A stretch of DNA of 61,770 nucleotides. Origin: a virus. How positions within the stretch are numbered: the stretch's first letter is position 1; the number at the start of each line of letters is the position of its first letter. The position numbers and the translations under genes are program-made. Shown one piece after another: positions 3,679 to 42,076 of the stretch. Below the pieces are notes generated by a model. The model did not search any database. It had not been told where the DNA came from and saw only the letters and a program-made list of their open reading frames with translations. Location of the stretch: IMG/VR virus record IMGVR_UViG_3300035438_000760, positions 1 through 61,770 of that record. One strand, 5' to 3'.

Positions 3679-4365
3679 GTGGATTTTGACCTGACTGAGT
3701 TAGAGAAGAAGATGTCGCCGTCTGAGGCGGGTCGTTACGCCGCTGAGATGCGATGGCGTACTCATTCTGGTATGGCTTTGCCCGCTGGTGCAAACACTGT
3801 TTTGTTGCCTGACCGTTTGAATCGTGCTACTGACAACATGTTGGCTAAGGGTGGCAGTGTTTCTCACTTGGGTTTGAACGAGAGCGATGCTGTTTTGCGT
3901 GGTGCGATGATGATGGTGGAGCGCACTTTTAGTGAGGCTCGTATGAATCAGCGGGATTACGAGTTGAATGTGCATGCTCAGAAGTCGTGGCAGGAGGCTC
4001 GTAAGGATCCTTCGGCGATGCTTCATGTGGTTCGTGTTGGTCGCAATATTGCGGCGGTTGCGGTTACGGTTCGTCCGAATGATGCGACGGTGGAGATTCG
4101 GCATTTGAGTTCTACTGGGGTGTTGAAGGGTGCTGGTTCGGCTTTGTTGGGGTCAATTATTAAGAAGGGTGTGAAGGGTGGGCGTACTACTTTTCGGGTT
4201 ACGCCGTCTGAGGAATCTAAGTCTTTTTGGGATGAGTATGGTTTTAGCGGTGCTGTTTATGACCAGTTGGGTAATCCTGATGGGTCGCAGGATTTGGTTG
4301 TGAAGCCTGAGTGGTTGCGTGTTGTAAAGGCTAATTTTGATTCTTCAACGGAAGGTACAGAGTGA
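3679..4365 (+). CDS. Tagged GNAT-like acetyltransferase
   Basis: 228 residues from GTG 3679. Residues 12-29 are a copy of the shared SRSEAG tag ('MSPSEAGRYAAEMRW'). The remaining part resembles a GCN5-type acetyltransferase: 'IRHLSSTGVLKGAGSALL' fits the acetyl-CoA-binding loop, and 'SFWDEYGFSG' is the usual C-terminal strand-helix. The substrate is unknown. It is the first of three consecutive tagged genes and overlaps the next by 4 bases. If the tag directs virion packaging, this would be an injected enzyme; that is inference. Confidence 0.7.
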   Translation: MDFDLTELEKKMSPSEAGRYAAEMRWRTHSGMALPAGANTVLLPDRLNRATDNMLAKGGSVSHLGLNESDAVLRGAMMMVERTFSEARMNQRDYELNVHAQKSWQEARKDPSAMLHVVRVGRNIAAVAVTVRPNDATVEIRHLSSTGVLKGAGSALLGSIIKKGVKGGRTTFRVTPSEESKSFWDEYGFSGAVYDQLGNPDGSQDLVVKPEWLRVVKANFDSSTEGTE

Positions 4366-5492
4366 ACAAGTCATTGGAAAATGTGTTGAAGGCTTTGGAG
4401 CAGGACGCTTTGGCGTTTTGTTCGGAGTCGGATTGGGCGATCGTTGTCGCTGAATGCGAGAGGGCTGGGAATGTTCGTCGTGTTTCTAAGTCGGCTCAGG
4501 TGATTTTGGAGAAGGCTATGTCTCGTTCTGAGGCTGGTCGGTTTGCGGCTGAACAGCGTTGGAAGAATCATGTGAAGGAGGGTGATGGTAGCGGAGGGAG
4601 AATTCCCAATCCGCCCGGGTCGTCGGTTCGTGGCACAAGATCTGCTTTTAAGACTCCAGAATCTAAGGCTAATGCTAAAAAAATGATGCGAGACGCATTG
4701 TTATACGGTGGGTATAACGGTATAGAAGTTGCTGAAATTTTGACTGGCAGAGGAAATAACATTGCCAAAAAACAAAGTCGCAGGTGGTTGAAGTTGTATG
4801 GCTTTACGGACGGTCAAATACGAGAGTTTGTTGGCAGAGACACCGTTGAAACAAGTGGCAGTGGAACTCCTAAAGAGAAATACTCGCCAGTGCAATACCA
4901 AGCGGTTCGGGATGCGATACCTCAAATCAGTGCGGACAATGCTAAGAAGTTGACTCAGTATCTTGCTGATAATGATCTTCTTGGTGGTACTGCTGGGATG
5001 ACTCCTCAGCAGATGCTTGATAAGTGGGTGCCTCATTTGGATCGTGCTTTGGGTGGTAGCGAGACTGCAACTCCTAAAACGGCACCAGTAAAAAGTGGTG
5101 GTGAACGGGGTTCGGGTTCGTTTGATGATGGAACACCTTTTCATGGTAAGTTTTCAAGCCCGACAAACAATGACGGCGAAGGCGACGGCACTTTAGGTAC
5201 CAGCCGTGTTAACCATCCTGTTTACAAAACACCGAAGTATAAGGCTGAAGTGAAAGCGGCGGCTCTGTACCAGTTGCATAACGAGATCGTAAAAATGCAT
5301 CGGCAGGCAGGCAAACAAATTCCAAATTCTGCCAAGCCTTACATGGATGCTCTAAATTCGTTGTCAAATGTCAACGAAATGTACGGCATGGACTCTGGCA
5401 AATCCATTGTTGCTTACACCATTAGCAATATTAAATTTTTTGGTGAGCAAGGCAAAGCGTTAAAAGCGGAGTTGTCCGCTCGGTTGAAATAA
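4362..5492 (+). CDS. Tagged protein of unknown function
   Basis: 376 residues. Residues 1-52 form a helical module ('LENVLKALEQDALAFC...') also present in the products at 5521 and 26280. Residues 53-70 carry the tag ('MSRSEAGRFAAEQRWKNH'). The rest is low-complexity Gly/Ser/Pro linkers separating two helical regions; I recognise no catalytic motif. It sits between the GNAT-like and RelA/SpoT-like tagged genes. Confidence 0.7.
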   Translation: MNKSLENVLKALEQDALAFCSESDWAIVVAECERAGNVRRVSKSAQVILEKAMSRSEAGRFAAEQRWKNHVKEGDGSGGRIPNPPGSSVRGTRSAFKTPESKANAKKMMRDALLYGGYNGIEVAEILTGRGNNIAKKQSRRWLKLYGFTDGQIREFVGRDTVETSGSGTPKEKYSPVQYQAVRDAIPQISADNAKKLTQYLADNDLLGGTAGMTPQQMLDKWVPHLDRALGGSETATPKTAPVKSGGERGSGSFDDGTPFHGKFSSPTNNDGEGDGTLGTSRVNHPVYKTPKYKAEVKAAALYQLHNEIVKMHRQAGKQIPNSAKPYMDALNSLSNVNEMYGMDSGKSIVAYTISNIKFFGEQGKALKAELSARLK

Positions 5493-5520
5493 TCTCTCTC
5501 ACTATTTAAAGGAAACAGTC

Positions 5521-6462
5521 ATGCGACAAGGTTTGGAATCAGTTTTAAAAATGTTGGAGCCGTTTGCTCTCGGATTTTGTTCCGATAGTGAGTGGTCTGA
5601 TGTGGTTGCTGAGTGCGAATATGTTGGTGGTGTTTCTGGTGTGTCGGTTTCGGCTCAAAGGATTTTGGCTAAGGCGGAGTTTGGTTCTCGTTCGGAGGCT
5701 GGTCGTTATGCGGCATTACAGCGTTGGAAGACCCATATCCCTGTTGACGATGTAATCACCGCTTACCCTAATGCGAAACCTGCTGTGGCTGTTGGGGAAC
5801 CGTTCCCTCCTCCTCCTACGCCAGATACTGAACCTGATCCTAAGTATGGTGAGGAAAGCATTCGTCTGGCTAGAGAACTTCGTGCCAAATCGGTGCTTCT
5901 TGAACCTGAAGTTACAAACATGATTTTGGCGGTTGCTCAAAAGACTGGTGCCGAAACGCCTGACCTTAAACATCGTTTGAAGGCAACAGGTAGTCTTGCT
6001 CGCAAGATCCATAATGAGGGTATGGCTGAACATGACGGTGATTTTGTTAAGTCTGCTGAGGGTATCTCAGATGCGATTCGTTACACAATGGTGATTGATG
6101 ATGATAACTATTTGGGTGCGGCTCAGCAGATTATTAAGGATTTTGAGTCCAGTGGATACAAGATTCGTAACAAAAACTTTTGGCAGACGGGCGATCCTTT
6201 TGATGCGATGACTTTAAAGTTGTCTAAGGACGGGGTTACTACTGAGTTGCAGATGTTGACTCCTGCGGCGAAGAAAGCCAAGGAACTGAATCATCCGTTG
6301 TATGAGATTTATCGTGATCCTTCTACACCGATGCTCACTCGGATGAGTGCTTGGAAAAAAATGGTTGATGTAGCCAAGTTAACGCCTCGTCCGTTAGGCT
6401 ATTCCTTATTGTTAACACTTGGAACTTTGGTTCTTCAAAAACCTGATTGGGCGTTGATGTGA
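5521..6462 (+). CDS. Tagged RelA/SpoT-like nucleotide pyrophosphokinase domain protein
   Basis: 313 residues with ribosome site AAAGGAAACAG. Residues 1-53 are the helical module shared with 4362 and 26280, 54-72 the SRSEAG tag, and about 85-105 a proline-rich linker. Residues ~145-270 match the layout of RelA/SpoT-type synthetase domains as I remember them: a basic segment 'LKATGSLARKI', then 'GISDAIRYTMVI', a Gly-Tyr-Lys strand, and 'ELQMLTPAAKKAK' where alarmone synthetases have ExQxRT. Homologues occur in phage-borne and polymorphic toxins. Which nucleotide it would modify cannot be seen. Confidence 0.6.
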   Translation: MRQGLESVLKMLEPFALGFCSDSEWSDVVAECEYVGGVSGVSVSAQRILAKAEFGSRSEAGRYAALQRWKTHIPVDDVITAYPNAKPAVAVGEPFPPPPTPDTEPDPKYGEESIRLARELRAKSVLLEPEVTNMILAVAQKTGAETPDLKHRLKATGSLARKIHNEGMAEHDGDFVKSAEGISDAIRYTMVIDDDNYLGAAQQIIKDFESSGYKIRNKNFWQTGDPFDAMTLKLSKDGVTTELQMLTPAAKKAKELNHPLYEIYRDPSTPMLTRMSAWKKMVDVAKLTPRPLGYSLLLTLGTLVLQKPDWALM

Positions 6463-20703: not shown

Positions 20704-20872
20704 TAATGCACCCAAAAATTGTGACACCCGCCCCCCAAAATCAAAGTACCCATATATGTGATGTTTGGTGTGTGTATTGTTGGGTTTTGTATGACCCCCC
20801 CCTTTGTTTTTGTTGCGACCCCGAAAAATTTTTGCAGTTTTTTTGGTTTGGTTTGGTTGGGTGATTGGTGCG

Positions 20873-25596: not shown

Positions 25597-26190
25597 ATGT
25601 ACACATGCGAATGCCAACACTCTGAGGAATACCTTGAGTATTTTAAAGAGTTAGCAAAACTGCCCGACGAAAGCAAAAAATTGCTGAAGGTCATTATGGA
25701 ACCGTTTGAGGGCGAAGAGTTTTCAGTCAAGTGCAAGGGCTGTGCTGATCTTGAGTTGATGAGCGCAATGGTTGAAGCGTCTGGTCTGCCTGAAGTGGAA
25801 TTTGATTGGAGCGATCCTTGCCCAGCCGATTTTGTCACTCTTGCGGACGAAGATATCAATCTGAAAGCCCAAGAGATCGCACGAGCAATCGTTTCGGGTG
25901 AGTCAATTTCGCCAGCAAGCAACCGCAAACTGCTAATGCACTGGGCGGGCATTGATGACGATGAGGTTTACTGCCGATATGTGGAAATTGGAAACTGGAT
26001 TGCGGAAGATCGCAAACTTCGTGAGATGGACGATGAAGAAATGGATGATTACCATCGTGCGAAAGACGAAATGAAAGGTTTGATTGACGAGATCATGTCG
26101 CCAGAGTTAATCGCTGAGGCATTGAAGCATTACGAAGAAATCAAGTCGGTCACGGATTCGCTTGAGCGTTTGTGGGAAGCCGAAGAGTAG
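25597..26190 (+). CDS. Acidic helical hypothetical protein
   Basis: 197 residues from ATG 25597, chosen for CAGGAGG. TTG 25528 and ATG 25573 are in-frame alternatives. The N-terminus has 'CECQHS', with 'KCKGCADLE' near residue 48. The protein is strongly acidic. No family recognised. A terminator follows. Confidence 0.55.
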   Translation: MYTCECQHSEEYLEYFKELAKLPDESKKLLKVIMEPFEGEEFSVKCKGCADLELMSAMVEASGLPEVEFDWSDPCPADFVTLADEDINLKAQEIARAIVSGESISPASNRKLLMHWAGIDDDEVYCRYVEIGNWIAEDRKLREMDDEEMDDYHRAKDEMKGLIDEIMSPELIAEALKHYEEIKSVTDSLERLWEAEE

Positions 26191-26210
26191 GGAAGTCAGC
26201 GGGTTCAGAA

Positions 26211-26236
26211 AAGGGACGGGCGACCGTCCCTTTTTT
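26211..26236 (+). terminator. Rho-independent terminator
   Basis: A 9-bp perfect stem (AAGGGACGG/CCGTCCCTT) with loop GCGA runs into six T residues. It separates the small-gene operon from the tagged topoisomerase. Confidence 0.9.
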
Positions 26237-26267
26237 GTTGCTTAAATACGGTTCAGCACTACTGGGG

Positions 26268-26273
26268 TATGGT
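26268..26273 (+). promoter_or_regulatory. -10 box of a leaderless transcript
   Basis: TATGGT lies six bases before ATG 26280. The preceding ACTACTGGG is shared with the promoter at 41174. No ribosome site is present. Confidence 0.5.
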
Positions 26274-26279
26274 GAGCGG

Positions 26280-27332
26280 ATGGTTATGCCTGCCTCCACA
26301 CAATTTATTTTGAAGCAACTGGAGCCGTTCGCTCAGTGTGAGCCTCATATCTGGGATTTGGTTGTGCAGGAAGTTGAGTCGCATGGACTCAACCAGATCA
26401 GTAAGTCATCCATGATTGAGTTGAAGGTGGCTAAGGCTGGTTGGGAGCGTATGGAGAAAGCAAGGTACGCATCTCGCAGTGAAGCGTCACGATTCGCCGC
26501 CGAACAGCGGTGGAAAGGGCATGCGAAGAAAGAACCGTCTTCAGGTATGCGGAAAGCGACAGTTGCCGAACGAAAGCAATTGGGTGTCCCTCCCGCGTGG
26601 ACTGATGTAGAAATTGCTGACAGTCCAAAGGGTGTTAACGGTTTATTGTTTAGAGGTATTGATGCGAAAGGTCGTGTGCAGTCCAAGTACACCGAAGAGC
26701 ATTCTGCTAAACGATCTAAATTGAAGTTTAAACGGATTTTGGAATTGGAAACTCATTTAGGAAAGTTAGATGCAACGCTTGAAAAGGGTGTGAAATCTGG
26801 AGATGAGCATGCCGTGTGTCTTTCAATTATTCGCCAAGGCGGTTGCAGACCCGGATCGGATAACGAAACTTTGGGTACGGTCAAGGCTTTTGGGGCTACA
26901 ACTTTGGAGGCTCGTCATGTGAAGGTGGCTGGCGATGTTGTGAAACTGGATTTTGTTGGCAAGTCGGGCAAGCAGAATCAGATTGAAATTAAGGATAAAA
27001 ACCTTGCTTCGGCGATGCGAACCTTGTTAAAAGGGAAGGGCAAGTCGGACAAAGTGTTTGCTTCGGTGGATGCTCCGTCTTTGCTTGAGTATCAGCGGAC
27101 AATTTTGCCTAAGAAGTTTTTGTTGAAAGATTTGCGGACTTCGTTGGGGACTAAAACGGCTTTGTTGGCGATCAAAAAAATGGCGGTTCCGAAAACTAAG
27201 ACTGCTTACAAGAAAGCGAAGTCTGAGATCGGCAAAATTGTTTCGGAAAAGTTGGGTAATACGCCTGCTATTGCGTTGCAAAGTTATATCAACCCGATGG
27301 TTTTTGGAGTTTGGGAGGGTGTCAGTGAGTGA
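26280..27332 (+). CDS. Tagged type IB DNA topoisomerase
   Basis: 350 residues. Residues 1-60 are the helical module shared with 4362 and 5521; 63-81 the tag ('RYASRSEASRFAAEQRW'). Then comes a bacterial-type TopIB: 'VPPAWTDVEIA' and 'GIDAKGRVQSKY' (N domain), 'CRPGSDNETLG' (Arg190), 'LDFVGKSGK' (Lys228), 'LLKDLRTSLGT' (Arg286) and 'GNTPAIALQSYINP' (Tyr336 nucleophile). All active-site positions are present. It would relax supercoils by a 3'-phosphotyrosine intermediate. The tag suggests it may travel in the virion, which is inferred. Confidence 0.85.
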   Translation: MVMPASTQFILKQLEPFAQCEPHIWDLVVQEVESHGLNQISKSSMIELKVAKAGWERMEKARYASRSEASRFAAEQRWKGHAKKEPSSGMRKATVAERKQLGVPPAWTDVEIADSPKGVNGLLFRGIDAKGRVQSKYTEEHSAKRSKLKFKRILELETHLGKLDATLEKGVKSGDEHAVCLSIIRQGGCRPGSDNETLGTVKAFGATTLEARHVKVAGDVVKLDFVGKSGKQNQIEIKDKNLASAMRTLLKGKGKSDKVFASVDAPSLLEYQRTILPKKFLLKDLRTSLGTKTALLAIKKMAVPKTKTAYKKAKSEIGKIVSEKLGNTPAIALQSYINPMVFGVWEGVSE

Positions 27333-27498
27333 TATTTCTGAAGAGGAAAATGCGTGGGCGGTTGCTGAGATGCAAAAGTTGATGGTCAAGATCAGTCCCG
27401 AAATGGTTGATGTTGGCACTTGGGATGACTGCATGGATGACGAGCCAGAGTCAAGCGAATACATAGCAATGGAAAAGGAAGTGGATGATGAAGATTGA
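27325..27498 (+). CDS. Small acidic protein
   Basis: 57 residues from GTG 27325 with GGGAGGG upstream, overlapping the topoisomerase gene by 8 bases. Highly acidic ('DDCMDDEPESSEY'), possibly a DNA mimic or assembly adaptor; the role is unknown. Confidence 0.5.
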   Translation: MSDISEEENAWAVAEMQKLMVKISPEMVDVGTWDDCMDDEPESSEYIAMEKEVDDED

Positions 27499-28516
27499 CC
27501 AGTTGATTGGTTTAATTCGGGATAATGGTCGTTTGGATTCGGCGACTTTCAATATTGTTGAACGGGAGATTCGCGGGAATGCGATGTCTAAGTCAACGGT
27601 GCTGATCGTTCGGTCAATGTTTGACAAAATGGAGAAGGCTGATCGGTCTTCTGCTGGTCGTATAGCGGCTCAAGCCCGCTGGAAGGGGCATGTGAAGCAA
27701 CAGCCAGTTCCAGCGCAAGGTGGGGCATCTGGAGTGGCTCCTGCGGGTGTTAAGGGCTATCAACGCCCCGAAATTTTTAAAGTTAAGACGGTTGAGGCGG
27801 CGATCGCCATGATGAACGAGGGCAAGACCGTTGAATTAGAAAATGATGGTCAGGCTCACACTCTTTTGGTGGAGTTAGCCAGAATTGCTAACGATGCGAA
27901 GATAAAAGGTCGGGAAGCCCCGAACTATGACTTGTGCAAAGTGACTGTGCCGGGCACAAACCTTTTTTGTGGTGAGAACAAGGGGATCCCTCGTTCCAAG
28001 ATGCCTCAGTTAAGGAGTAAGCCTGTTGCTGGTTCTGAAGCGGACAAGTTGCCTCGTAACCAGTGGGGTGAGGTTGAAGGTGCGCCAATATTCCAGAAGC
28101 ATTTGGAGGATCTGGGTATTTCGGTGAAGAGCCAGACAATGCGAGCGTCGCAATTGAAGGCAACCCAACTTGATATGAAAGGCACTCAGATTGCCTTGAT
28201 GATGACTGACTCAAAGTTTGATCCCAAGGGTGAAGAGATTTGGGTGACTCGTGATGGCTACATTTTGGATGGGCATCATCGTTGGGCGGCGACGGTTGGT
28301 CGTGACTTGGCTGACGGAAAAATCGGTGATCTTGATTTGAAGGTCAAAGTTATTGATGCTCCGATTTCTGAGATTCTTCCGATGGCAAATTCGTGGACTC
28401 AAGAAATTGGTTTGAAGGCGATTGCTGGTCCTGCTACTGCTCCGAATGCTTCGGGTGCGATGGAGCCTGCTACGGATGTCAAAAAGAAATCTGGTGGTTG
28501 TGGTTGTGGTTGCTAA
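27485..28516 (+). CDS. Tagged ParB-like protein
   Basis: 343 residues. A helical N-terminal module is followed by a tag variant at 53-69 ('DRSSAGRIAAQARWKGH'). Residues ~225-305 contain 'IWVTRDGYILDGHHRWAA', the ParB/Srx-fold signature with DGHHR. The C-terminus ends in GCGCGC after a lysine patch, a possible metal site or lipid/thioester anchor. ParB-like domains of this type occur in polyvalent phage proteins. The molecular function is not established. Confidence 0.7.
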   Translation: MMKIDQLIGLIRDNGRLDSATFNIVEREIRGNAMSKSTVLIVRSMFDKMEKADRSSAGRIAAQARWKGHVKQQPVPAQGGASGVAPAGVKGYQRPEIFKVKTVEAAIAMMNEGKTVELENDGQAHTLLVELARIANDAKIKGREAPNYDLCKVTVPGTNLFCGENKGIPRSKMPQLRSKPVAGSEADKLPRNQWGEVEGAPIFQKHLEDLGISVKSQTMRASQLKATQLDMKGTQIALMMTDSKFDPKGEEIWVTRDGYILDGHHRWAATVGRDLADGKIGDLDLKVKVIDAPISEILPMANSWTQEIGLKAIAGPATAPNASGAMEPATDVKKKSGGCGCGC

Positions 28517-31918: not shown

Positions 31919-31947
31919 TGGGGTGATGCTTCGGCTCACCCCATTTT
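31919..31947 (+). terminator. Rho-independent terminator before the head operon
   Basis: TGGGGTGA (31919-31926) pairs with TCACCCCA (31936-31943), loop of 9, followed by TTTT. Confidence 0.75.
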
Positions 31948-31955
31948 GCTATCCT
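31947..31955 (+). promoter_or_regulatory. Extended -10 promoter for leaderless portal transcript
   Basis: TGC then TATCCT (31950-31955), six bases before GTG 31962. Same layout as at 14371: terminator, TTTGC-TATNNT, start codon. Confidence 0.6.
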
Positions 31956-31961
31956 CGCCAT

Positions 31962-33401
31962 GTGGCTGACATGCGTGAACTAGGAACATCAGGATTTCAA
32001 CATTCTGGCGGTTCTGTCACAGACGAATTTTTAGCGAATCTTCAAGGCATTCGTGGTATTCGTACATGGCGTGAAATGGCTGATAACGATCCTGTGGTCG
32101 GTGCGATGCTGTTTGCTGTTGAACGGCTAATCCTGAATCTGAAATGGAAAGTAGATCCATTTATTGAAGAAGGTAAGACCAAAGCATCTAAGAAAGATGA
32201 AAAGGTCGCCGAATTTGTTGAGCAATGCTTGTATGACATGGAAAATTCGTGGGACGGTACTGTCGCTGAGATCCTGTCGTTTTTGACTTACGGCTGGTCG
32301 TACTCCGAGATCGTTTACAAGAAGCGGGGCGGGATGGACACCAAAGACAAGTCCAAACGATCCAAATTTAATGACCAGAAAATTGGTTGGAGAAAGATTT
32401 CTAACCGAGCGCAAGAAACATTGTTCCAGTGGGATATTGACGAATCTGGCGATGTGAGAGCAATGCAACAATTAGATCCTTCTGCTGGTAAGGGTCTGGT
32501 GTCAATTCCCATTGAGAAGGCTCTGCACTTCCGTACAACCTCCGCTAGAAACAATCCTGAAGGGCGAAGCCTTTTACGCAATGCGTACCGCCCGTGGCGA
32601 TTTAAACGCACCATTGAAGAAATTGAAGCGATCGGCATTGAACGAGATCTGGCTGGTCTGCCAGTTGCTTATGTACCTCCGTCCATGCTTTCGTCCACCG
32701 CAACATCAGATGAGGTGTCTGCCCGCAATGCGATCCAAAGCATGGTTCGTGGAATCAAACGAAACCAAAACGAAGGCATCCTTTTCCCGCTCGCTTTTGA
32801 TGAAGGCGGACGGGAGATGTACAAACTGACTCTTCTGTCCAGTGGTGGCAACCGCCAGTTCAACACTGATGCCATTGTTGCCCGCTATGACCAGCGAATC
32901 ACAATGACAATTCTGGCTGACTTCATTTTGTTGGGTCACGAAAAAGTCGGTTCGTTTGCTTTGGGGTCGTCAAAGATTGACTTATTCTTGACTGCGATCG
33001 CCCAGATGACCGCCCAGATTTCTGATGTGTTCAACAAGGATGCTGTTCCGAGACTGTTGAAGTTAAACGGCATGGATCCTCAGCGCGCACCCGTGATGCG
33101 AGTAGAAGAGTTGCAGTCCACCGATCTAACTGTTCTTGGCGACTTCATCACCAAAATGGCTGGTGCTGGAGCGTTGCAAGTTGACTCTGGTCTGGATGAG
33201 TTTGTTCGTGATCTTGCTGGCTTGCCACCAAAGGTTGAAGAAGAAGGTGCTTTACAACAAGGTGCTCAGATGCAACCGAATGCGATGCCCCAACCTCCTG
33301 TAGCACCGCAGTCTGCTCCGCCCGCTGAAGCGCAATCCGCTGAAGCGCAACCTGCTCAAGCGTCTGGTAGTGGTTCGGTTGAAGACTACATTATTCAATA
33401 A
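31962..33401 (+). CDS. Portal protein
   Basis: 479 residues from GTG 31962. The upstream ATG at 31926 lies inside the terminator stem and is unlikely. 'ADNDPVVGAMLFAVERLI', 'YGWSYSEIVYKKRGG', 'RSLLRNAYRPW' and 'YDQRITMTILADFI' match the DUF935/Gp6-like portal family. The C-terminus is Gln/Ala/Pro-rich. It forms the DNA gate at the capsid vertex and docks terminase. Apparent leaderless translation. Confidence 0.9.
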   Translation: MADMRELGTSGFQHSGGSVTDEFLANLQGIRGIRTWREMADNDPVVGAMLFAVERLILNLKWKVDPFIEEGKTKASKKDEKVAEFVEQCLYDMENSWDGTVAEILSFLTYGWSYSEIVYKKRGGMDTKDKSKRSKFNDQKIGWRKISNRAQETLFQWDIDESGDVRAMQQLDPSAGKGLVSIPIEKALHFRTTSARNNPEGRSLLRNAYRPWRFKRTIEEIEAIGIERDLAGLPVAYVPPSMLSSTATSDEVSARNAIQSMVRGIKRNQNEGILFPLAFDEGGREMYKLTLLSSGGNRQFNTDAIVARYDQRITMTILADFILLGHEKVGSFALGSSKIDLFLTAIAQMTAQISDVFNKDAVPRLLKLNGMDPQRAPVMRVEELQSTDLTVLGDFITKMAGAGALQVDSGLDEFVRDLAGLPPKVEEEGALQQGAQMQPNAMPQPPVAPQSAPPAEAQSAEAQPAQASGSGSVEDYIIQ

Positions 33402-34269
33402 AGCCTCATCTTTGACTCTAAACGAGATCGGGATGGCTGATGCTGTCTCCCAAATTTCGTCAAGTTTGTCTAAGAGTCTGTTGGGCGTTATTGGTGGTTC
33501 TTCAGATGGCGCAACCGCTTTAGGTCGGCTGAGTTCGGTTGACATTCTGGATCAACTTCAAGAGTTAACGCCAGCGATTATCGGTCCGTTGATGAACGAA
33601 CTTGAATTGTCTGCTGTGGATGCGATCGCTTCCATCCCGCCACAGTTAAGTATCGGAGTCAGTTTCAATACCACTGACCCTCGCGCACTAGCGTGGGCGA
33701 CCCAGCGGGCTGGCGAGTTTGTTGTTCAAGTCAGTGACGAAGTTCGTACCCAAATCAGAGATCTGATCTCTCGTGGTTACCGTGACCAAATGACCGTAGA
33801 TGCCATTGCAAGAGAACTGCGAAACATTGTTGGTTTGCATTCTCGTTGGGCGACCGCCGTTGAAAACATGTACGCCAAAACTCTTAGCGGGCTTGTCAAT
33901 TCGGGTGTGGCGTTAGGTATGGCTACTACGCAGGCGACCAGTCTTGCGGGGGCGTATCGGGACAAGTTGATTGCTTCACGGGCTAACACGATCGCCAGAA
34001 CCGAAGTCATCGGGGCTAATAACGCTGGACGCTATTTGGGGTGGCAACAGTTCATGCAACAGTCTGGTTATCCGCCGAACTTGATGCAGAAAGAATGGGT
34101 TGTTGGTCCTGATGGTTGGCAGGGTATCAATGTATGCGATCTGTGTCTTGAGTTAGATGGCACGACTGTTGGTGTGAATGATGAGTTTCCTAGTGGTCGG
34201 TTGATGCCTCCGTTGCATCCGAATTGTCGTTGTACTGCTTTGCTGATTTTTCCTGAGGATGGTTTGTGA
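33370..34269 (+). CDS. Minor head protein (SPP1 gp7/Mu F-like)
   Basis: 299 residues from GTG 33370 (overlapping the portal gene); ATG 33433 would give 278. 'ANTIARTEVIGANNAGRYLGW' and the C-terminal 'VCDLCLELDGT' with 'PPLHPNCRCTAL' are hallmarks of the F-like head-morphogenesis domain. Found inside or under the portal and may be ejected with DNA. Confidence 0.88.
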   Translation: MVRLKTTLFNKASSLTLNEIGMADAVSQISSSLSKSLLGVIGGSSDGATALGRLSSVDILDQLQELTPAIIGPLMNELELSAVDAIASIPPQLSIGVSFNTTDPRALAWATQRAGEFVVQVSDEVRTQIRDLISRGYRDQMTVDAIARELRNIVGLHSRWATAVENMYAKTLSGLVNSGVALGMATTQATSLAGAYRDKLIASRANTIARTEVIGANNAGRYLGWQQFMQQSGYPPNLMQKEWVVGPDGWQGINVCDLCLELDGTTVGVNDEFPSGRLMPPLHPNCRCTALLIFPEDGL

Positions 34270-35972
34270 TGCCGTACAAGATTGAGCAGAGGGCTGACAA
34301 GTTTGTTGTTGTTCGTGAGGACGACGGGAGAGTTGTTGGTACGCATTCGTCTAGGGCTAAAGCAACGGCTCAGTTGAAAGCGTTGTATATCCATGTTAAG
34401 GATGCCATTGAGAAAGCGAAGTTCGGTTCACGAAGCGAAGCAGGCAAGTACGCCGCCCACATTCGGTGGATGCGAGAGCGGGGTATGGAACCGTTAACGC
34501 CTGATGCTTGGCGTAGCCAGAACGCTCAACCAGTGGAGCCGACAAGAAGTTCGTATGAGAGTTCGTTGGATGCGATCACAAGTTTTGCTAGTAACGAGTT
34601 TCAAAGCAGATTGCGTGATGCTGGTAATGAAATAAATGCGCGGTCGTATGACAACGGAAGACCTGTTTCAGTGAAGGACTATTTGCTTATCAATGAAATG
34701 TCCAAAGTTGCAGTCCGTGATCCTAATGATCCTCAAAACACATTGGTTATTTGTTCTCCTCCTTTGATGGCAGTTGAACGAGAAGTCAATGAACTAGGCG
34801 GATTAGTACATGATGCGATATTAGAAAAGATGAAGCAAGAAGGGTTCTTGTTGCCAAACGGCGAATTTGATGAGACTCAACAAAAAGAGTTACGCAAAGT
34901 TAGAGAAGAATCAGAGTCTGTTGTTCAAAGCATTGCGGACAAGGGCAAGGAACTTGGACTGCAAATGTATACCTCCGAAACAAGGGGTGTTCAAACTTCA
35001 AAAATGAAAGTCATGTGGCGTGGGGCTGATGATATTGATGCTTCAAAAATGCCTCCAGAACTTCGTGCGCTTCACGAAAGTTGGCGCGACGCAGAAAAAG
35101 AATTGGATGGTGTGCCGTGGAGTTTACGAGATGCGAACACCGTTTTGAGAGATCGGGTAGAGAAAGCGGAAAAAGATTTTACCGAACTTGCGCTTAGTGA
35201 ATTTGAAACTTGGTTTGATGCTAACCACAATCCGTCTGGCGGTAGTCATGTCAGTCGGTTGACTGAACTTAAAAAAATTGCGGCGGACGCTAGTAGGGCT
35301 AGTTATAATGCACCTACTTATATTGATCGTTACCGTCACACTTTCGCTGAGGTTTTGAAAGATCTTGGTGTTTCTGGTCAGTCTCAAATTGGGACATCCG
35401 ATCAACTCAGAATTTCAAGCGGGACAGCATCCAAAGAACTTAAAGATAAATTTGTGAAACAAATTCACACATATTTTCCTGCTTCAACAATTCAAACTTT
35501 TAAAAATAAATATCCGCAAGGTTTGAAATTGACTAAATCAAATTCTGGTGGTCATTGGGTTGACTCTCAAGTAAAAATTCAATCCGATTTAACTCTTGAA
35601 ACAAATCTCCATGAATTTATGCATGCTGTAACCTATGCAGATCCGAGGGCTAACTTTGTTGAACGAGCGTTTTACATGCGACGACGAACTGATGGTGGTC
35701 GTGGCAATCAGCCGATTCAAGAAAGAGTTAAAAACGGGTGGGAGAAACCTAAAAAGACTTATGACGGCGGTAGAGGTAAACGGAGCGACTCAGAGTACAT
35801 TCGTGACGAGTTCCATTCGGAATATACGGGCAGGTACTACGACTCTGGGCATACCGAAACGATGACAACTGGTCTTGATCGTATTGCTGGGCGAGGTTCT
35901 AGTATTGAGGATCAAGATCACACAAACACTGTTATAGGTTTGCTTGTAGCGATTGGGTTGGGTTTCAAATGA
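34269..35972 (+). CDS. Tagged polyvalent protein with zinc peptidase domain
   Basis: 567 residues from ATG 34269. A short N-terminal strand domain precedes the tag at 52-68 ('FGSRSEAGKYAAHIRW'). A long charged helical middle leads to a metallopeptidase-like end: 'TNLHEFMHAVTYADP' (HExxH) and 'HTETMTTGLDRI' as possible third ligand. The last ~120 residues are related to the end of the next protein. Tag and position right after the minor head protein suggest virion packaging and delivery into the host, where it might process host or phage proteins. Confidence 0.72.
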   Translation: MPYKIEQRADKFVVVREDDGRVVGTHSSRAKATAQLKALYIHVKDAIEKAKFGSRSEAGKYAAHIRWMRERGMEPLTPDAWRSQNAQPVEPTRSSYESSLDAITSFASNEFQSRLRDAGNEINARSYDNGRPVSVKDYLLINEMSKVAVRDPNDPQNTLVICSPPLMAVEREVNELGGLVHDAILEKMKQEGFLLPNGEFDETQQKELRKVREESESVVQSIADKGKELGLQMYTSETRGVQTSKMKVMWRGADDIDASKMPPELRALHESWRDAEKELDGVPWSLRDANTVLRDRVEKAEKDFTELALSEFETWFDANHNPSGGSHVSRLTELKKIAADASRASYNAPTYIDRYRHTFAEVLKDLGVSGQSQIGTSDQLRISSGTASKELKDKFVKQIHTYFPASTIQTFKNKYPQGLKLTKSNSGGHWVDSQVKIQSDLTLETNLHEFMHAVTYADPRANFVERAFYMRRRTDGGRGNQPIQERVKNGWEKPKKTYDGGRGKRSDSEYIRDEFHSEYTGRYYDSGHTETMTTGLDRIAGRGSSIEDQDHTNTVIGLLVAIGLGFK

Positions 35973-38350
35973 TTAGGTTCGGGTATGTTCAGAGCGGTGT
36001 TCAGCGTTTCGCTGAGTGGACTGAAGAGTTTGGGCTTGTATGCGAAGACGATTTGCTTGATGCCGTCAATCTTTTGATTGGGGCTAAGGCTCCTGTTCGG
36101 TGTTCGTGGGTCGGGTATTTGATGGAAGCGTCGCTTGATACGGCTGTGCAGGCGTGGGGGACTATCAATAAGGCATTAAAGTGGTGTAATGGTGTTGAGT
36201 TGGTTCGTTGTACGCCACCATTGATTGAGTATGACGAGTTCTCGGATCCTGAAGAGGATCTGGTTGAGAAGGCTATGTCTCGTAGCGAAGCAGGCAGAAT
36301 AGCCGCAGAGGCAAGATGGAAGAACCATGTCAAAGCGTCTGTAGCAAATTCAATTATTGATCGTGTTAAGGCGTATGGCGGTTTGTCGGTCAAAATGTTG
36401 ACTGGTGAAGAGCCAACTTCTGGCTACATGGTTGCTCAAAGAGGTCACAATCGTGAAGTGCCAAGTGCCGACTTTTTTGATCCCGCTAAAGGGCAGGCGA
36501 TTCTCAAGAAGTATTTGATTGAAAAAAGGGATGTTTTCGGAAAGGAACAGTACCTAGGTTTATGGTACGATTCCGCAAACGATGAAGTTGTTTTAGATGT
36601 AGTTGACAACATACAGAAGAAGAGCGATGCGACCCGTGAGGGTGCGGAAAGAAATCAGCAGGCGATTTGGGATGTCAAAGGACAAAGAGAAATCAGCACA
36701 GGCGGTTCAGGAGACAGAGAGTCCGAACCAGCCATTGATGTTAGTAAAACCGCAGGTTCCGTTATCGGAGATGGACGACGACGAGATTGGGCTTTTCGCC
36801 AAAGATATTTGGGAGAAGTTTATGGAGACACGCAAGCCTTAATTGAGTTTGATAAAGCGAAGTTCAGTTCACGATCTGAAGCAGGTAAGTACGCCGCTCA
36901 TATTCGTTGGATGAATCAGAGGGGTATGACCCCGATGACGGTTGACCAGTGGAAATCACAAAACACTGGTGGTTCTGAGCGCATGCGAAAGATCCAAGAG
37001 TTGCAGATGGATGTGTCAGAGCGACTGAGAAAGTTCAATATTCTTTTGGGTGAGTCGCATGTTTTCCAAGATGGTATTTGGAACAGTTACGCAGAAAGCA
37101 AAATAAGTCAGGGTACAAATAAAGTTTTGTTGGTTCAGCCTGAAGACTGGGAAAAAACTGAGATTCCTTCAAAGGGCACCCCTGCTCAGTTGTGGGCTGT
37201 AGAGGTTCCAACAAGCATTAACGATTTTGATTACAAGGTTGCTGTTCCTAATGCTGAAGTCATGCGATTGATGGAAGATGTCAAAACTTTAGGTGGGTTA
37301 ATAGAAGATGAGGCTTTGGCACGGGCAAACGCAAGTTCGTCAGAGGTAATAGATCCTGTTGTGTCAACTATGGAGTTCAAAAGAAAAATAACTGGTCTTC
37401 AGCAAGAGATTAAAAATAATGAATGGCTCATGCATTACGGTATGAAAAGTTTAGTGAATTTCCTTGGGGATCCCGACAACGAGAAAACTAAATTTGAAGA
37501 ATGGGTTGATTCTGGTCTGCCTTCAAAAATAAGTGCTTCACAAAACGCAGTGAGCGAATTTGGTGAATTTGGGGAAAAAACCGTTCAAGACATTATTGAT
37601 AAATACGATGTTCGTGATTTTGACAAGTTTGTAGATGTTATGAACAATGAAATATTGTCTTCTCAAACAGCGGTAAGCGAAGCAGGTTTTGACCAAAACT
37701 CGTTAGCAAAATATAGGCGTGAAGTGTTGCGTGAGATTCGTCCGCACAGTACGGATGAAGGCATGCACAATGAAATAATTACGGGCAACCCTAAAGATAG
37801 CGGTACTGCGCTTGAATCTCATGTTGCAAAAGCAATGCGATTGTTGCCTTCAGCGTGGGTTGAAAAATTGAAGAACTACACAAAACAACACAACGCTCAA
37901 GGGAAAATGAGTATTACACCTGCCGTTGAAGGCAGATCCGGCTACAGCGAACCACATCATTTCATTCAAACTTCAACCGATGCCCAGCCGATGACTCTTG
38001 TCCATGAGTTAATCCATGCTGTTGAAGCGTCTAATCCTGCCATGCGGGTGATGGTCAACTCTTTCCATATCAATAGACGATTCGGTAATTTCAGAGCGGA
38101 TGACGAAAAGTTTGGTAGCACTTTCAGCAAAAGGTTACTAGGCAAATATGAGGAAGAAAAAAATGGGTTTGTGGAAGACAGTTACGCCGATAAATATTCT
38201 GGTCGTGAATATCCGTCTTATGAGTTGACTGCTCGTGAGCAGTTAACAACGGGTACCGACATGTCGTTGTTTGTTAACAACATGCGAACGCATGGTTTGA
38301 TTGACTTGGATCAGTTGAATTTTACTTTAGGAATGTGGGCTTCAGCATGA
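35969..38350 (+). CDS. Two-tag polyvalent protein with zinc peptidase domain
   Basis: 793 residues. Layout: unique N-terminal module (1-100); first tag 103-120 ('MSRSEAGRIAAEARWKNH'); a domain with 'SGYMVAQRGHNREV', 'YLGLWYDSANDEVVLDV' and 'ERNQQAIWD' resembling a domain common in actinophage polyvalent proteins; second tag near 298-315; helical middle; C-terminal peptidase 'MTLVHELIHAVEASNP' (HExxH) with 'TAREQLTTGTDM'. Tags sit at domain borders. A second plausible frame at 36603-36842 raises the possibility of a frameshift. Confidence 0.72.
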   Translation: MIRFGYVQSGVQRFAEWTEEFGLVCEDDLLDAVNLLIGAKAPVRCSWVGYLMEASLDTAVQAWGTINKALKWCNGVELVRCTPPLIEYDEFSDPEEDLVEKAMSRSEAGRIAAEARWKNHVKASVANSIIDRVKAYGGLSVKMLTGEEPTSGYMVAQRGHNREVPSADFFDPAKGQAILKKYLIEKRDVFGKEQYLGLWYDSANDEVVLDVVDNIQKKSDATREGAERNQQAIWDVKGQREISTGGSGDRESEPAIDVSKTAGSVIGDGRRRDWAFRQRYLGEVYGDTQALIEFDKAKFSSRSEAGKYAAHIRWMNQRGMTPMTVDQWKSQNTGGSERMRKIQELQMDVSERLRKFNILLGESHVFQDGIWNSYAESKISQGTNKVLLVQPEDWEKTEIPSKGTPAQLWAVEVPTSINDFDYKVAVPNAEVMRLMEDVKTLGGLIEDEALARANASSSEVIDPVVSTMEFKRKITGLQQEIKNNEWLMHYGMKSLVNFLGDPDNEKTKFEEWVDSGLPSKISASQNAVSEFGEFGEKTVQDIIDKYDVRDFDKFVDVMNNEILSSQTAVSEAGFDQNSLAKYRREVLREIRPHSTDEGMHNEIITGNPKDSGTALESHVAKAMRLLPSAWVEKLKNYTKQHNAQGKMSITPAVEGRSGYSEPHHFIQTSTDAQPMTLVHELIHAVEASNPAMRVMVNSFHINRRFGNFRADDEKFGSTFSKRLLGKYEEEKNGFVEDSYADKYSGREYPSYELTAREQLTTGTDMSLFVNNMRTHGLIDLDQLNFTLGMWASA

Positions 38351-40743
38351 AACTTGTTTGGGTAACCGTTGACGGTGAAACAATTTTGTGGGATGAAGGT
38401 GTTTTGGATGCTTCGCCTGACTTTTTTGAAAATGTTGCGTTGTTGGTTGATGCGAAGGTTCGTGTTCGTTCTCCACGGTATTACTTTGCTGAGGATGTGG
38501 CTCGGATGGATTCTCCGTTTGGGGCTTTGTTGACTGTTGAGTTTTTGTTGGATTTGTTGAATGTGGGTTTGGTTGAGGCTCCGATGCTTTTTGGTGAAGC
38601 GGATCCTTTGTTGACTGATAATGATTCTTTGGTTGTTTCTGTTGAGAAGGCTATGTCTCGGAGTGAAGCGGGCAAGTATGCGGCGGAGCAACGCTGGAAG
38701 AACCATGCGAAGAAAGAAACAACAAAGCAAGAAACGCTTCTATCTCCTACTGATGACGCTGAGATTGCTAGGGCTACTGGTCGCCCGTTGAGTTGGGCGT
38801 TGCCCGCTACACGAGATCCTGAATTAAATGAAATTTTGGGTCGGCTGGTAGCAGATTTTTCTTCGTCGCCACCGAGGTATCACGAATATGATCGTGTTGT
38901 CCGTGATCCAGCCACAAAAGAGTTGCTCAAGTATTTGGAAAGCAAAGGCATTGTTGGGAAATCGGATTTTGAGGCGGGTAAAACCAATGCTGGGATTATG
39001 GCTGTTGGGTTGCTTCTGAATGGCTTGCAAGCAAACAGTTCTTCGGCGTGGTCAACTTCGGTTCCAAAAGGGTTTGCTCCGTATTTTAAAGCACGAATGA
39101 TTGCTGAGGAAGGTTCTCCAGTAATCAATGTTAATGCGTATGCGCTTAACCAAATCATTAGTAGTGGCAGGTACAAAACCCAGTTTGAAACTCAAGAGTC
39201 AAACGGTGCGTTGAACCCGTATATTCGTGCGGCTTTTGAGTCAGGTGCAATGGGTTTGCACCCAAACATGGATGCGACTAAGCGTCCCGTGTACGGGACA
39301 ATGCAATCGCATGATTCAATTGGCAATACTCACCCAATGAGCCAATACGGTACAATTTCGCTTCAGTTGAACGAAAGTGTTCGTGAGCGTTCAACGGTTT
39401 CGTATAACGATTCTTTGGGTATGTCTATAGAGACTGCACCTGCTGACAGTACGGGCAAAGAGTTGGATCGGATGTTTAATACTGGTTCAAAGGGTGGACA
39501 TCTTGATTATGTTGAGACTCAGATTCATGGTGGTGTTTCGTTTAGCGATGTGAAAGCAATATGGGTGAATGAGAAGTATGCGCCCGGTGATTTTGAAAAT
39601 GTGACCGCGATATTGGATAAGTATGGGTTGTCCAATATCCCTGTGATGCGTGTTGGTGTTGATGATTTCTACAAAGCGAAGTTTAGTTCACGGAGTGAGG
39701 CTGGCAAGTATGCGGCGCATATTCGTTGGATGAACCAGCGTGGTTTGACTCCGATGACGGCTGACCAGTGGACTGCTAGTCAGAGTGCTGATGCGACACC
39801 TGTTGTTACGGCTCCGACTCGTGTGACGGCTAGTGGTGTGGATTGGGATCAGCCTGTACCACAGTTCAAAACTGTTGATGAAGCGCAAGCGTGGATTGAT
39901 GCGAAGTGGGGTAAGCGTGATGGTGGTTTACCAGACAGAGAATTTAAGATTGCCCTCACTGAAGGCAAGCGCATGAGCGGTTATTTTTCGTATGGGTTTG
40001 CAAACATTGAGGCAACACAACATTGGATTGAAAAAATAGATCAGGTGTTTAAAGAATTTCCTGAAATAGCAAACGCAGTTAGTTTTGTTGCGTCTGCTGA
40101 ACCTCCGTATGGATATGAACGCGCTCTCGGTTGGGCGGGTCGTGCATCAGCGTCGTTATATTTTAACCGTGGTATTTGTTCCGATCTTAATCTTGTGGAC
40201 GCTACGATTAAAGAATGGAAAAAGACGGGTTATTGCGCTACAAATGACCCGACTGCTGTTTTGTGGCATGAATTTGGTCATCATTTAGGTTATGCGGCGG
40301 GTAACGCTAATTTGTATGGCAACCTGACAGAGGTACGCATGCCTAGAACTTCGCAACCTCTTGCCGACATTAACCAGAGAGATCAAAAAGCGTATGAGAA
40401 GGCTATTCGGGTATTGGTTAAGCCTTTGATAATTAAAAGTATTAACAACGACCGAAAAGTAAAAGGGTTGAAACCGTTGCACTTTAAAGGGTTGTCCGAG
40501 GCAATGTCGGGTAATAGCAGAACTAAAGACTCTGACGCTTTAACTTGGCGTGACGAAATCAAAAAGCAGTTAAGCACTTATTCGTTGAGTAACTATAACG
40601 AAATGATTGCCGAATCGTTTGCCCAATATGCACACGGAGTATTTACTGGTGCTGAAATATCACCGTTGGCTAGAGGAGTTGTTGAAGGTTTACGGGGCTA
40701 TATTGCAGGTAAGCCGTTAGTACCGTCAGGAGGATCGCAATGA
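38347..40743 (+). CDS. Two-tag polyvalent protein: DUF3626-like domain plus zinc peptidase
   Basis: 798 residues from ATG 38347. Tag one at 103-120 ('MSRSEAGKYAAEQRWKNH'). The following domain has 'YGTISLQLNESVRERST' and 'LDYVETQIHGGVSFSDV', which resemble DUF3626 (an ART-like fold, from memory). Tag two is near 446-462. The C-terminal domain carries 'AVLWHEFGHHLGYAAG' (HExxHH) and 'EMIAESFAQYAHG', a gluzincin-type ligand. Domain borders again coincide with tags. Probably packaged and injected, which is inference. Confidence 0.72.
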   Translation: MKLVWVTVDGETILWDEGVLDASPDFFENVALLVDAKVRVRSPRYYFAEDVARMDSPFGALLTVEFLLDLLNVGLVEAPMLFGEADPLLTDNDSLVVSVEKAMSRSEAGKYAAEQRWKNHAKKETTKQETLLSPTDDAEIARATGRPLSWALPATRDPELNEILGRLVADFSSSPPRYHEYDRVVRDPATKELLKYLESKGIVGKSDFEAGKTNAGIMAVGLLLNGLQANSSSAWSTSVPKGFAPYFKARMIAEEGSPVINVNAYALNQIISSGRYKTQFETQESNGALNPYIRAAFESGAMGLHPNMDATKRPVYGTMQSHDSIGNTHPMSQYGTISLQLNESVRERSTVSYNDSLGMSIETAPADSTGKELDRMFNTGSKGGHLDYVETQIHGGVSFSDVKAIWVNEKYAPGDFENVTAILDKYGLSNIPVMRVGVDDFYKAKFSSRSEAGKYAAHIRWMNQRGLTPMTADQWTASQSADATPVVTAPTRVTASGVDWDQPVPQFKTVDEAQAWIDAKWGKRDGGLPDREFKIALTEGKRMSGYFSYGFANIEATQHWIEKIDQVFKEFPEIANAVSFVASAEPPYGYERALGWAGRASASLYFNRGICSDLNLVDATIKEWKKTGYCATNDPTAVLWHEFGHHLGYAAGNANLYGNLTEVRMPRTSQPLADINQRDQKAYEKAIRVLVKPLIIKSINNDRKVKGLKPLHFKGLSEAMSGNSRTKDSDALTWRDEIKKQLSTYSLSNYNEMIAESFAQYAHGVFTGAEISPLARGVVEGLRGYIAGKPLVPSGGSQ

Positions 40744-41155: not shown

Positions 41156-41173
41156 TGACTACTGGGTTTACTG

Positions 41174-41179
41174 TAAGGT
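41174..41179 (+). promoter_or_regulatory. -10 box of a leaderless transcript
   Basis: TAAGGT lies exactly six bases before ATG 41186. ACTACTGGG upstream is shared with 26257-26265. No ribosome site. Confidence 0.5.
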
Positions 41180-41185
41180 TCTGGC

Positions 41186-42076
41186 ATGGATACAACCGAA
41201 ATTGACCAGTGGATAAACGGCGATCTTTCTTGGGAAGATCTTTCGGAGAGCGCACAAACGGCTATTGACGGTGAAGTTGACGATGCGAAGCCTGTTGCCA
41301 GTATGGAGTTAGTCCACAAGTCGGTTGCTGAGAAGCGGTTTACTTTAGGTCCGTGGTATATCCCGAACCGTTTGGATGCTCATAATGAGTGGACAGACTC
41401 TGATGAGTTGCAGGCTGGCTTGTGGGATTATGTCCGCAAGGGTGATCGTGGTATCCGTTTACAGCACAATCGTGACATTGTGGCTGGAGAATGGGTTGAG
41501 GCAATGCAACTTCCTGTTCCTGTCCAGATGCAGAAAGCGGCAAACGGAGAAACTGTTGAATACCCTGAAGGAACCGTTTTTCTTGGTGTTGTGTGGAAAC
41601 AGTGGGCGTGGGATCTCGTGAAGAACGGCAAAATCAAAGGTTTTTCTATTGGTGGTTCGTCGGCTCGGTTGCCAATTGAGCCTGTCAATAAGGGAATCAA
41701 GGTTTCTCCGACTTTCATTCCTGCTTTGATCCGTGTCTTGGGTAAGAGTTATGCGGTTCGCCCAGATGAGGGCGGTGTCCGTGTTTCTTCAGGTTTGGAC
41801 TTTGTTGTTTTTGATCCGTTCCAAGTGGATTTGGTTACTAAGTCGGTTTCGGATGGCTTTGTTGCTGATGCGAATCAGGTGTTGGCGTTTTCGCAGGCTA
41901 TTTTGACTGGCGGGATAGATCATGGTTTGTGGGTCAATACTGGTGATTCATGGTCGTTTGTGAAAGCGAAGTTTGGGTCACGGGTTGAGGCTGGTAAGTA
42001 TGCGGAGCATGTTCGTCGGGCTGTCGCTTCGGGGGAGACTCCTTTGGGTGTGGTTGAGTTTTCCGAAAATCTGTAA
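41186..42076 (+). CDS. Prohead protease (XkdF-like) with C-terminal tag
   Basis: 296 residues. 'LGPWYIPNRLDAHNEWTDSDEL' in part, 'IRLQHNRDIVAGEWVE' and 'IKGFSIGGSSAR' match XkdF-type prohead proteases; His94 and Ser154 are candidate catalytic residues. Residues 263-278 are a copy of the shared tag ('FGSRVEAGKYAEHVRR'). The protease thus carries the same element as the large packaged proteins, which may be its target or its own cleavage/packaging site. Apparently translated without a leader. Confidence 0.82.
   Translation: MDTTEIDQWINGDLSWEDLSESAQTAIDGEVDDAKPVASMELVHKSVAEKRFTLGPWYIPNRLDAHNEWTDSDELQAGLWDYVRKGDRGIRLQHNRDIVAGEWVEAMQLPVPVQMQKAANGETVEYPEGTVFLGVVWKQWAWDLVKNGKIKGFSIGGSSARLPIEPVNKGIKVSPTFIPALIRVLGKSYAVRPDEGGVRVSSGLDFVVFDPFQVDLVTKSVSDGFVADANQVLAFSQAILTGGIDHGLWVNTGDSWSFVKAKFGSRVEAGKYAEHVRRAVASGETPLGVVEFSENL

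Follow-up and report, generated by a model that had tools for sequence, protein, structure and literature searches.

What does one short peptide do on nine unrelated proteins of a single phage? The question is raised by a 61,770-nt record of a virus of bacteria (IMG/VR record IMGVR_UViG_3300035438_000760), analysed over its whole length and referred to here as the window. A first-pass annotation had noticed an SRSEAG-type repeat in it and proposed a head-targeting or protease-processing element on virion-borne effectors. We consider it likely that the tag is a 'cut-and-carry' module, in which a cut site for the XkdF protease and a short helix are placed before each virion cargo domain.

A peptide tag under selection

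All of the 11 repeat copies in nine proteins that had been reported were recovered by a profile search, in nine plus-strand ORFs and with scores of 21.7-41.8 bits, against a top score of 0.6 bits in the codon-shuffle control (50 shuffles of the window, six frames each). The SRSEAG consensus stood as a repeat but not as a strict string, as only 7 copies have SRSEAG and 4 of the 11 depart from it (non-strict cores: SPSEAG, SRSEAS, DRSSAG and SRVEAG). Two subtypes were present in the window, EKAMSRSEAGRxAAEQRWKNH and the longer KAKFxSRSEAGKYAAHIRWMxxRGxxPxTxDxW. Pfam models run against 38 diverse tags gave scattered weak matches only, and no known Pfam motif fits the tag.

The copies agreed in 71 of 201 comparisons of fourfold-degenerate third bases (35%), where codon usage alone predicts 32-37%, and the near-invariant serine alternates between TCN and AGY codons from copy to copy. 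As the serine codon classes alternate and the third bases are saturated, it is the amino-acid sequence of the tag that is under selection. A recent DNA repeat or gene conversion was ruled out by this codon saturation among the window copies.

An upstream lysine motif and a capped helix

The tag is most likely a composite, as read from its sequence, of an upstream cut-site motif and a short capped helix. The motif, [LIVMF]-x-K-[AG], is found upstream of the core in 90% of copies and was absent from the first-pass account. Counted as [LIVMF]-x-K-[AGS] at most 12 residues upstream of the core, it was present in 90% of 251 copies compared to 5.5% of control windows and 12% of shuffles, the shuffle controls being imperfect for helical, Ala-rich proteins. 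The motif was picked after viewing the tag sequences, a choice that does not bear on the scaffold and protease data given below. The most likely processing site is [LIVMF]-x-K|[AG] (the bar marking the predicted cut), 2-8 residues upstream of the SRSEAG core, and its putative enzyme is the prohead protease. The proposal of a targeting or processing element was thus upheld as a marker of head-module cargo, but the cut is more likely to fall at this upstream site than in SRSEAG. In the window, 10 of the 11 copies have A at P1', and the GNAT copy is atypical in having K there (ELEK|K). Semi-tryptic ends, suggested earlier as a proteomic readout, would miss the predicted cut because its P1 is Lys, where trypsin also cuts.

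The helix is the most conserved part of the tag, with the consensus forms [ST]RSEAGRYAAxxRW or [DN]RSAAGRYAAxxRW. It is basic, usually with three Arg and often one Lys, and its Trp is nearly invariant. The cap residue covaries with the residue three positions on (S/T-E 105:4, D/N-E 7:45; p = 1e-27, a value that overstates independence, being computed on copies from related phages). AlphaFold models begin the helix at the cap or immediately after it, with low confidence (pLDDT ~73 in the protease and ~44 in the GNAT protein), and the overall confidence of the tagged protease model (pTM 0.40) is too low to place tag docking. After the helix a second K-motif was not enriched (33 sites against 46 expected), and the helix is therefore predicted to stay on the cargo. 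It is most likely a docking element that takes the cargo into the head or holds it there. The XkdF phages Laroye, Ottawa and ValentiniPuff have the K-motif without the tag, and the helix is thus dispensable for head assembly itself; Laroye and Ottawa are cultured Arthrobacter phages.

Tagged and untagged genes of the window

The placing of tags at domain borders, proposed earlier, was borne out: one copy precedes each domain, with up to five per protein over the whole tag family. All genes described here lie on the plus strand. The GNAT-type acetyltransferase (3679..4365) has one N-terminal tag (core 3715-3756; predicted cut ELEK|K after 3708); a homologue, L036, scored above the Acetyltransf_10 cut-off and the best Foldseek match was GCN5 (E 5e-7), so that Pfam on the homologue and fold agree on the label given from the sequence alone. 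A cargo protein labelled phrog_13953, a label that names no function (4362..5492), also carries one tag (core 4521-4562; predicted cut ILEK|A after 4514). In the RelA/SpoT-like protein (5521..6462; core 5686-5727; predicted cut ILAK|A after 5673) the earlier label is confirmed by a match to PDB 8vx3 'SaSAS' (E 4.6e-11), which makes it a small alarmone synthetase. Topoisomerase IB (26172..27332; core 26472-26513; predicted cut RMEK|A after 26459) was likewise correctly named, as judged from PF01028 (E 2.4e-17). The ParB-like label (27485..28516; DRSSAG tag, core 27641-27682; predicted cut KMEK|A after 27637) agrees with the assignment to PHROG 2859, its one source.

The terminase large subunit (20804..22492; phrog_2), the portal protein (31923..33401; phrog_113) and the MuF-type head morphogenesis protein (33370..34269) are untagged in the window. 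They are followed by three large tagged proteins. The HExxH (zincin-like) cargo (34266..35972) has a GTHxSRAKAxAQLKALY module at its N-terminus ahead of the tag (core 34428-34469; predicted cut AIEK|A after 34415). The other two are two-domain proteins with a tag before each domain. One (35969..38350; cores 36278-36319 and 36869-36910) has predicted cuts LVEK|A after 36271 and EFDK|A after 36856, and HELIH in its second domain; the other (38335..40743; cores 38656-38697 and 39688-39729), with predicted cuts SVEK|A after 38649 and DFYK|A after 39675, consists of DUF3626 and then a domain with HEFGH.

The lysine motif in scaffold and protease

The gene of the head maturation protease (41186..42076) lies between portal/MuF and scaffold/capsid. 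Its naming as an XkdF-type protease was sustained by Peptidase_S78_2 (PF14550; 38.3 bits, cut-off 24). The protein reads VHK45|S directly before its catalytic domain (predicted cut after 41320), and this Lys45 is invariant (20/20). The C-terminal tag, counted earlier as one of the copies, has lost key residues and is not intact (S to V, A to E, W to R; core 41978-42019; FVK260|A, predicted cut after 41965). In relatives the corresponding tag joins the protease to a further domain, a Zeta toxin in several, and the window phage has no such domain. What its protease carries is thus the decayed remnant of a tag that once led into a domain since lost.

We infer that the gene at 42552..43247 is the scaffold from its place before the major capsid gene (43679..44629; phrog_1005, E 5e-99; no tag) and from its sequence character; its family, PHROG 13547, has no assigned function. 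The protein lacks the tag helix and has five predicted cut sites (MMK85|S, LLK97|A, IAK124|S, IAK159|A and LAK197|S). Over the scaffolds examined, and independently of the tags, [LIVMF]xK[AS] was found at 132 sites against 17 expected (~7-fold), and five motif Lys columns are kept in 20-23 of 23 scaffolds. No other P1 residue exceeded 3-fold (Arg 0.08-fold, Glu 0.47-fold). Counts of the same motif were 25 against 45 expected in portal proteins and 344 against 315 in cargo domains, and the scaffolds of T7, lambda and P22 had no comparable enrichment. When whole proteomes were ranked by the motif, the scaffold headed the list in each of three isolated phages (Laroye, ValentiniPuff and Ottawa), and XkdF came next in two of them, Laroye and Ottawa; the window had these two proteins in the opposite order, XkdF ranking first and the scaffold second. 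Cleavage of the HK97 capsid protein at K103/S104 is proven (PMC10275583), and this site reads FNK|S, which fits [LIVMF]-x-K|[AS]. The recurrence of the motif in scaffold and protease would be consistent with an HK97-like x-K|S/A specificity.

Phage and cargo confinement of the tag

The tag family comprises about 300 copies in 224 proteins from dozens of IMG/VR phage contigs; searches with two tag variants matched 59 and 61 IMG/VR stretches. Among 84,980 prokaryote genomes there were no strict matches, and the 34 relaxed ones all looked like chance (best 20.5 bits). On whole contigs the copies lie within head genes and adjoin the XkdF (Peptidase_S78_2) protease. The family is therefore of phages, not of mostly non-phage homologues, and its expected association with XkdF-type proteases was found in 9 of the 11 whole tag-bearing records. 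Tags were carried by 21 of 27 distinct XkdF homologues and 1 of 41 MuF homologues (L063), and by none of the homologues of portal (0/42), capsid (0/19), scaffold (0/24), terminase (0/17) or tape measure (0/5) proteins. Laroye, ValentiniPuff and Ottawa have no tags, nor has any phage in the isolate collection, and phage isolates yielded no near-DNA relatives of the window head region.

The tagged domains belong to dozens of cargo families and include ADP-ribosyltransferases (some Alt-like), ART-PolyVal, Zeta toxin, GNAT, alarmone synthetase, topoisomerase IB, ParB-like, HExxH and DUF3626. The first tag lies at a median of about 60-70 residues into the ORF, measured stop-to-stop. Unrelated biochemical domains are joined in single polypeptides, ART-PolyVal, RelA/SpoT, GNAT and other domains characteristic of polyvalent proteins are present, and the genes adjoin those of MuF, portal and prohead protease. 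This repertoire suggests that the tagged cargo is of the 'polyvalent', injected-effector kind, with injection as a prediction.

Proposed mechanism and alternatives

What was observed is a shared tag of two parts, confined to phages and to cargo, with cap covariation and with its K-motif recurring in scaffold and protease. From here we infer cleavage, packaging, ejection and the binding target of the helix. Precursors of the cargo, the longest made of five tag-domain units, would enter the procapsid during its assembly, along with scaffold and protease. At maturation, cuts by the protease would fall at several [LIVMF]-x-K|[AS] sites in the scaffold, ahead of the catalytic domain in the protease itself, and just upstream of each tag helix in every precursor. 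These cuts would remove the N-terminal propeptide and split the domains, each keeping a helix at its new N-terminus, and the freed effectors would be ejected with the DNA into the next cell. To the wider proposal, a general head-delivery system in which a modular peptide loads any domain as part of a polyprotein, the maturation protease frees each and payloads swap at the tag, we give an even chance.

Part of these data would also fit a cut site followed by a helix that binds packaged DNA or the portal instead of serving procapsid entry: the helix is basic with its nearly invariant Trp, and the predicted cut keeps it on the mature protein, while the T4 signal is removed. The tags, however, match no Pfam DNA-binding family, and we regard this as unlikely. 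Distinctly unlikely is a targeting-only reading, in which the entire tag would direct proteins to the head as the T4 sequence does and the conserved Lys would be part of the docking surface. That tags are on cargo and not on portal, capsid or scaffold proteins, that T4 and P1 package unrelated proteins via short N-terminal signals, and that the helix is the best-conserved part would all agree with it. But one signal per polypeptide should be enough, yet a tag stands before each of up to five domains; internal tags are conserved like first ones (median 44.4 vs 45.0 bits); and scaffold and protease have K-motifs with no helix behind them, a motif that also fits the HK97 cut.

Cleavage at SRSE|AG, as by the head proteases of phiKZ (S-x-E) and T4 (x-E), is very improbable despite letters that resemble the phiKZ motif (S-x-E|A): roughly one copy in three has Ala in place of Glu, a change that tracks the N-cap as in a capping box; scaffolds are poor in P1 Glu; and the protease here is XkdF/S78_2, not T4-type. 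A recombination linker for swapping cargo domains, with no virion role, is the least probable of these readings. Cargo exchange at the tag is real, as 637 of 846 homologous pre-tag pairs have cargo that is not detectably related. However, codon saturation in the window means that no DNA is shared and the peptide is strongly selected, and a neutral linker would neither share a motif with scaffold and protease nor avoid shell proteins. The cut-and-carry module remains our preferred reading.

Significance and comparison with known systems

Selection of head cargo by phages is known in few cases (T4, P1). With the tag as a search label, the predicted injected payload of a phage can be listed from its sequence, many of the domains being of unknown function. 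For XkdF/S78_2 proteases, [LIVMF]-x-K|[AS] is put forward as a specific substrate motif, one found in their scaffolds too, and as cultured phages carry it, the specificity is open to testing there. Should the helix suffice for packaging, it would be a portable loading signal for such phages. If true, head delivery as read here would parallel viral polyprotein processing, put by phages to the delivery of effectors.

The capsid targeting sequence of T4 (IPI-III and Alt; gp21 protease) is likewise a short peptide common to unrelated proteins and linked to a head-protease cut; here too one peptide is borne by unrelated proteins, assigned to the head by gene context, and the cargo families include an Alt-like ADP-ribosyltransferase. 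The T4 signal, however, is N-terminal, single, ~10 residues long, cut after Glu and removed. The present tag is not confined to one copy at the extreme N-terminus but internal and repeated before each domain, and instead of x-x-E, the Glu being variable, it has a Lys motif after which the cut is predicted, with the helix retained. In SPN3US and phiKZ several ejection proteins also have N-terminal propeptides cut by the head protease, but that protease is of another family and cuts after A/S-x-E, and the propeptides are long and without a repeated helix. HK97 gp4 (Peptidase S78) and the gp5 delta domain are similar in that the K103|S104 cut fits the motif; the difference is that the HK97 scaffold is fused to the capsid protein, and gp4 is S78 and XkdF S78_2, likened by cut motif. 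We know of no tagged cargo in HK97. Phage P1 resembles the present case in that an N-terminal segment of <30 residues sends large anti-host proteins such as DarB to the head; the Dar proteins have no common consensus, whereas here one is common to up to a dozen copies per phage. The polyvalent proteins (Iyer et al. 2017, PMC5512222) have the same domain repertoire, multi-domain layout, MuF/portal/prohead-protease neighbours and predicted injection. The passages of that paper covered here record no common inter-domain tag or protease site, whereas the present tag marks nearly every domain and ties the domains to XkdF.

Results

We observed the following for the peptide shared by unrelated proteins of the window, which consists of an upstream [LIVMF]-x-K motif and a SRSEAG-type helix core. 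The 11 copies in nine proteins described in the first-pass annotation are all in place on the + strand (genes at 3679, 4362, 5521, 26280, 27485, 34269, 35969, 38347 and 41186). They score 21.7–41.8 bits with a profile built from the family, and 50 shuffles of the window peak at 0.6. The proposed consensus held only in part: the tag is present in 11 copies but the literal string SRSEAG in seven, its terminal His is confined to some copies, and the copy on the XkdF head maturation protease (41186–42076, + strand) is degenerate. The copies fall into two subtypes. At fourfold sites, 71 of 201 comparisons across the window copies agree, which is the level expected from codon usage; the synonymous sites are thus saturated. 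This saturation rules out a young DNA repeat as the origin of the copies, and on sequence grounds indicates that the peptide is kept by selection.

The motif [LIVMF]-x-K-[AGS] lies within 12 residues upstream of the helix in 90% of 251 copies, versus 5.5% of control windows from the same proteins. The predicted cut sites in the window (position marked by |) are LEK|K, LEK|A, LAK|A, MEK|A, MEK|A, IEK|A, VEK|A, FDK|A, VEK|A, FYK|A and FVK|A. Scaffolds, whose sequences were not used to define the motif, are enriched in [LIVMF]xK[AS] (132 sites versus 17 expected). When all residues were scanned at P1, the residue before the predicted cut, Lys alone was prominent in the scaffolds (7.7-fold) and Arg was nearly missing (0.08-fold). 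Five motif-Lys columns are conserved, each in 20–23 of the 23 scaffolds, and the Lys just ahead of the XkdF catalytic domain is invariant (20/20). Ranking of whole proteomes by the motif placed scaffold and protease top or nearly so, for the window as well as for isolated phages. Predicted N-terminal propeptides of the cargo, the putative virion-borne effectors behind the tags, are enriched (102 versus 45) and capsid proteins only slightly (19 versus 11.5); no enrichment was found in the portal, the cargo domains, the 40 residues downstream of the tag, or the scaffolds of T7, lambda and P22. The HK97 capsid has a proven cut at K103/S104 (PMC10275583), which reads FNK|S.

Two isolated-phage proteins annotated as 'RNA ligase' or 'aldolase class I', Laroye gp18 (L026:14381-15502) and Ottawa gp87 (L028:27868-29007), are XkdF proteases, and these annotations look wrong. 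Both have an N-terminal domain with two HxT motifs, linked via a [LIVMF]xK|[AS] site; by eye, this domain appears to resemble a 2H phosphoesterase.

Among 162 distinct cores, R8, S9, A11, A15, A16, R19 and W20 are near-invariant. One of S, T, D or N precedes R, and this residue covaries with the position three further on: S/T is paired with E in 105 of 109 cores, while for D/N the partner is usually A or S (45 of 52), at p = 1e-27, a value inflated by the relatedness of the phages. This would be the pattern expected of a helix capping box. In the AlphaFold model of the window protease, helix 266–281 begins directly after the cap residue (pLDDT about 73); in that of the GNAT protein, a low-confidence helix (16–29) near the cap residue is separate from the well-predicted domain. 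The covariation and the modelled helix start lead us to read the Glu of SRSE as a predicted helix-cap residue.

Of 27 distinct XkdF proteases, 21 carry the tag, as does 1 of 41 MuF proteins; it is on none of the portals (0/42), capsid proteins (0/19), scaffolds (0/24), terminases (0/17) and tape-measure proteins (0/5). The sole tagged MuF seen, of 2276 residues, combines a MuF domain with several tag-domain units (L063:5133-11963, - strand, a related phage stretch). Tagged genes lie chiefly between MuF and scaffold, with smaller clusters ahead of the portal and behind the tail genes. At least 30 residues continue after the tag in all but eight copies, most of them truncated by contig ends and one being the window protease copy. 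Post-tag domains include ADP-ribosyltransferases (some Alt-like), Zeta toxin, GNAT, topoisomerase IB, ParB-like, alarmone-synthetase and DUF3626, a set matching the repertoire of the polyvalent proteins described by Iyer et al. (PMC5512222). Direct reading revealed HExxH in each of the window's three large proteins. The first cargo protein behind MuF starts with an N-terminal module, MPYKIEQRADKFVVVREDDGRVVGTHSSRAKATAQLKALY (phrog_3684; ∼22 distinct proteins; window:34266-34400), which may be a second head-related module.

The left tagged cluster (window:3679-6462) is located behind tail genes in a relative (the contig of L011/L025). From this placement, the window probably represents a genome that is circularly permuted and has been opened arbitrarily. 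An amidoligase-family gene (window:11937-12839) lies in the untagged portion.

In relatives, a tag C-terminal to the XkdF protease joins it to another domain (Zeta toxin in several). In the window and the related stretch L009 this domain is lost and the tag damaged; in L016/L019 the remnant FVKGSMSRSEAERAY is, by eye, all that remains. As the tag decays where the extra domain is gone, it seems to serve the domain behind it.

In IMG/VR viral contigs, a strict DNA back-translation of the tag matched 59 stretches; it had no match in 84,980 prokaryote genomes. The variant GDRSAAGRYAA gave 61 further viral stretches, on contigs partly shared with the first. None of 34 relaxed-pattern stretches in genomes was tag-like by score (best 20.5 bits). 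In total, ∼300 copies, which are not independent events, were collected from 224 distinct tagged proteins, with a maximum of five per protein. Judged by protease sequence, the isolated relatives are phages of Arthrobacter and Microbacterium; the tag is absent from the full genomes of three isolated relatives (Laroye, Ottawa and ValentiniPuff), and a search across all 50,697 phage records gave no match.

Discussion

From these patterns we infer that tagged cargo would be packaged, cut and ejected. Scaffold, protease and tagged precursors would co-assemble in the procapsid interior. At maturation, XkdF would cleave the scaffold at several sites, release its own catalytic domain and cut immediately upstream of every tag helix, so that propeptides would be shed and multi-domain precursors split, the helix staying on each released effector. 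The helix appears dispensable for cutting because scaffold sites have none, and would therefore need another role; the simplest candidate is docking, whether to the scaffold, the shell, the portal or DNA. Internal copies are as conserved as first copies; each domain thus appears to require its own tag, which counts against targeting alone.

A per-domain repeated signal, cut after Lys and with its helix retained on the cargo, was not found in the searchable open literature. A head-entry signal on unrelated proteins, coupled to head-protease cleavage, is already known from T4, and a packaging signal from phage P1.
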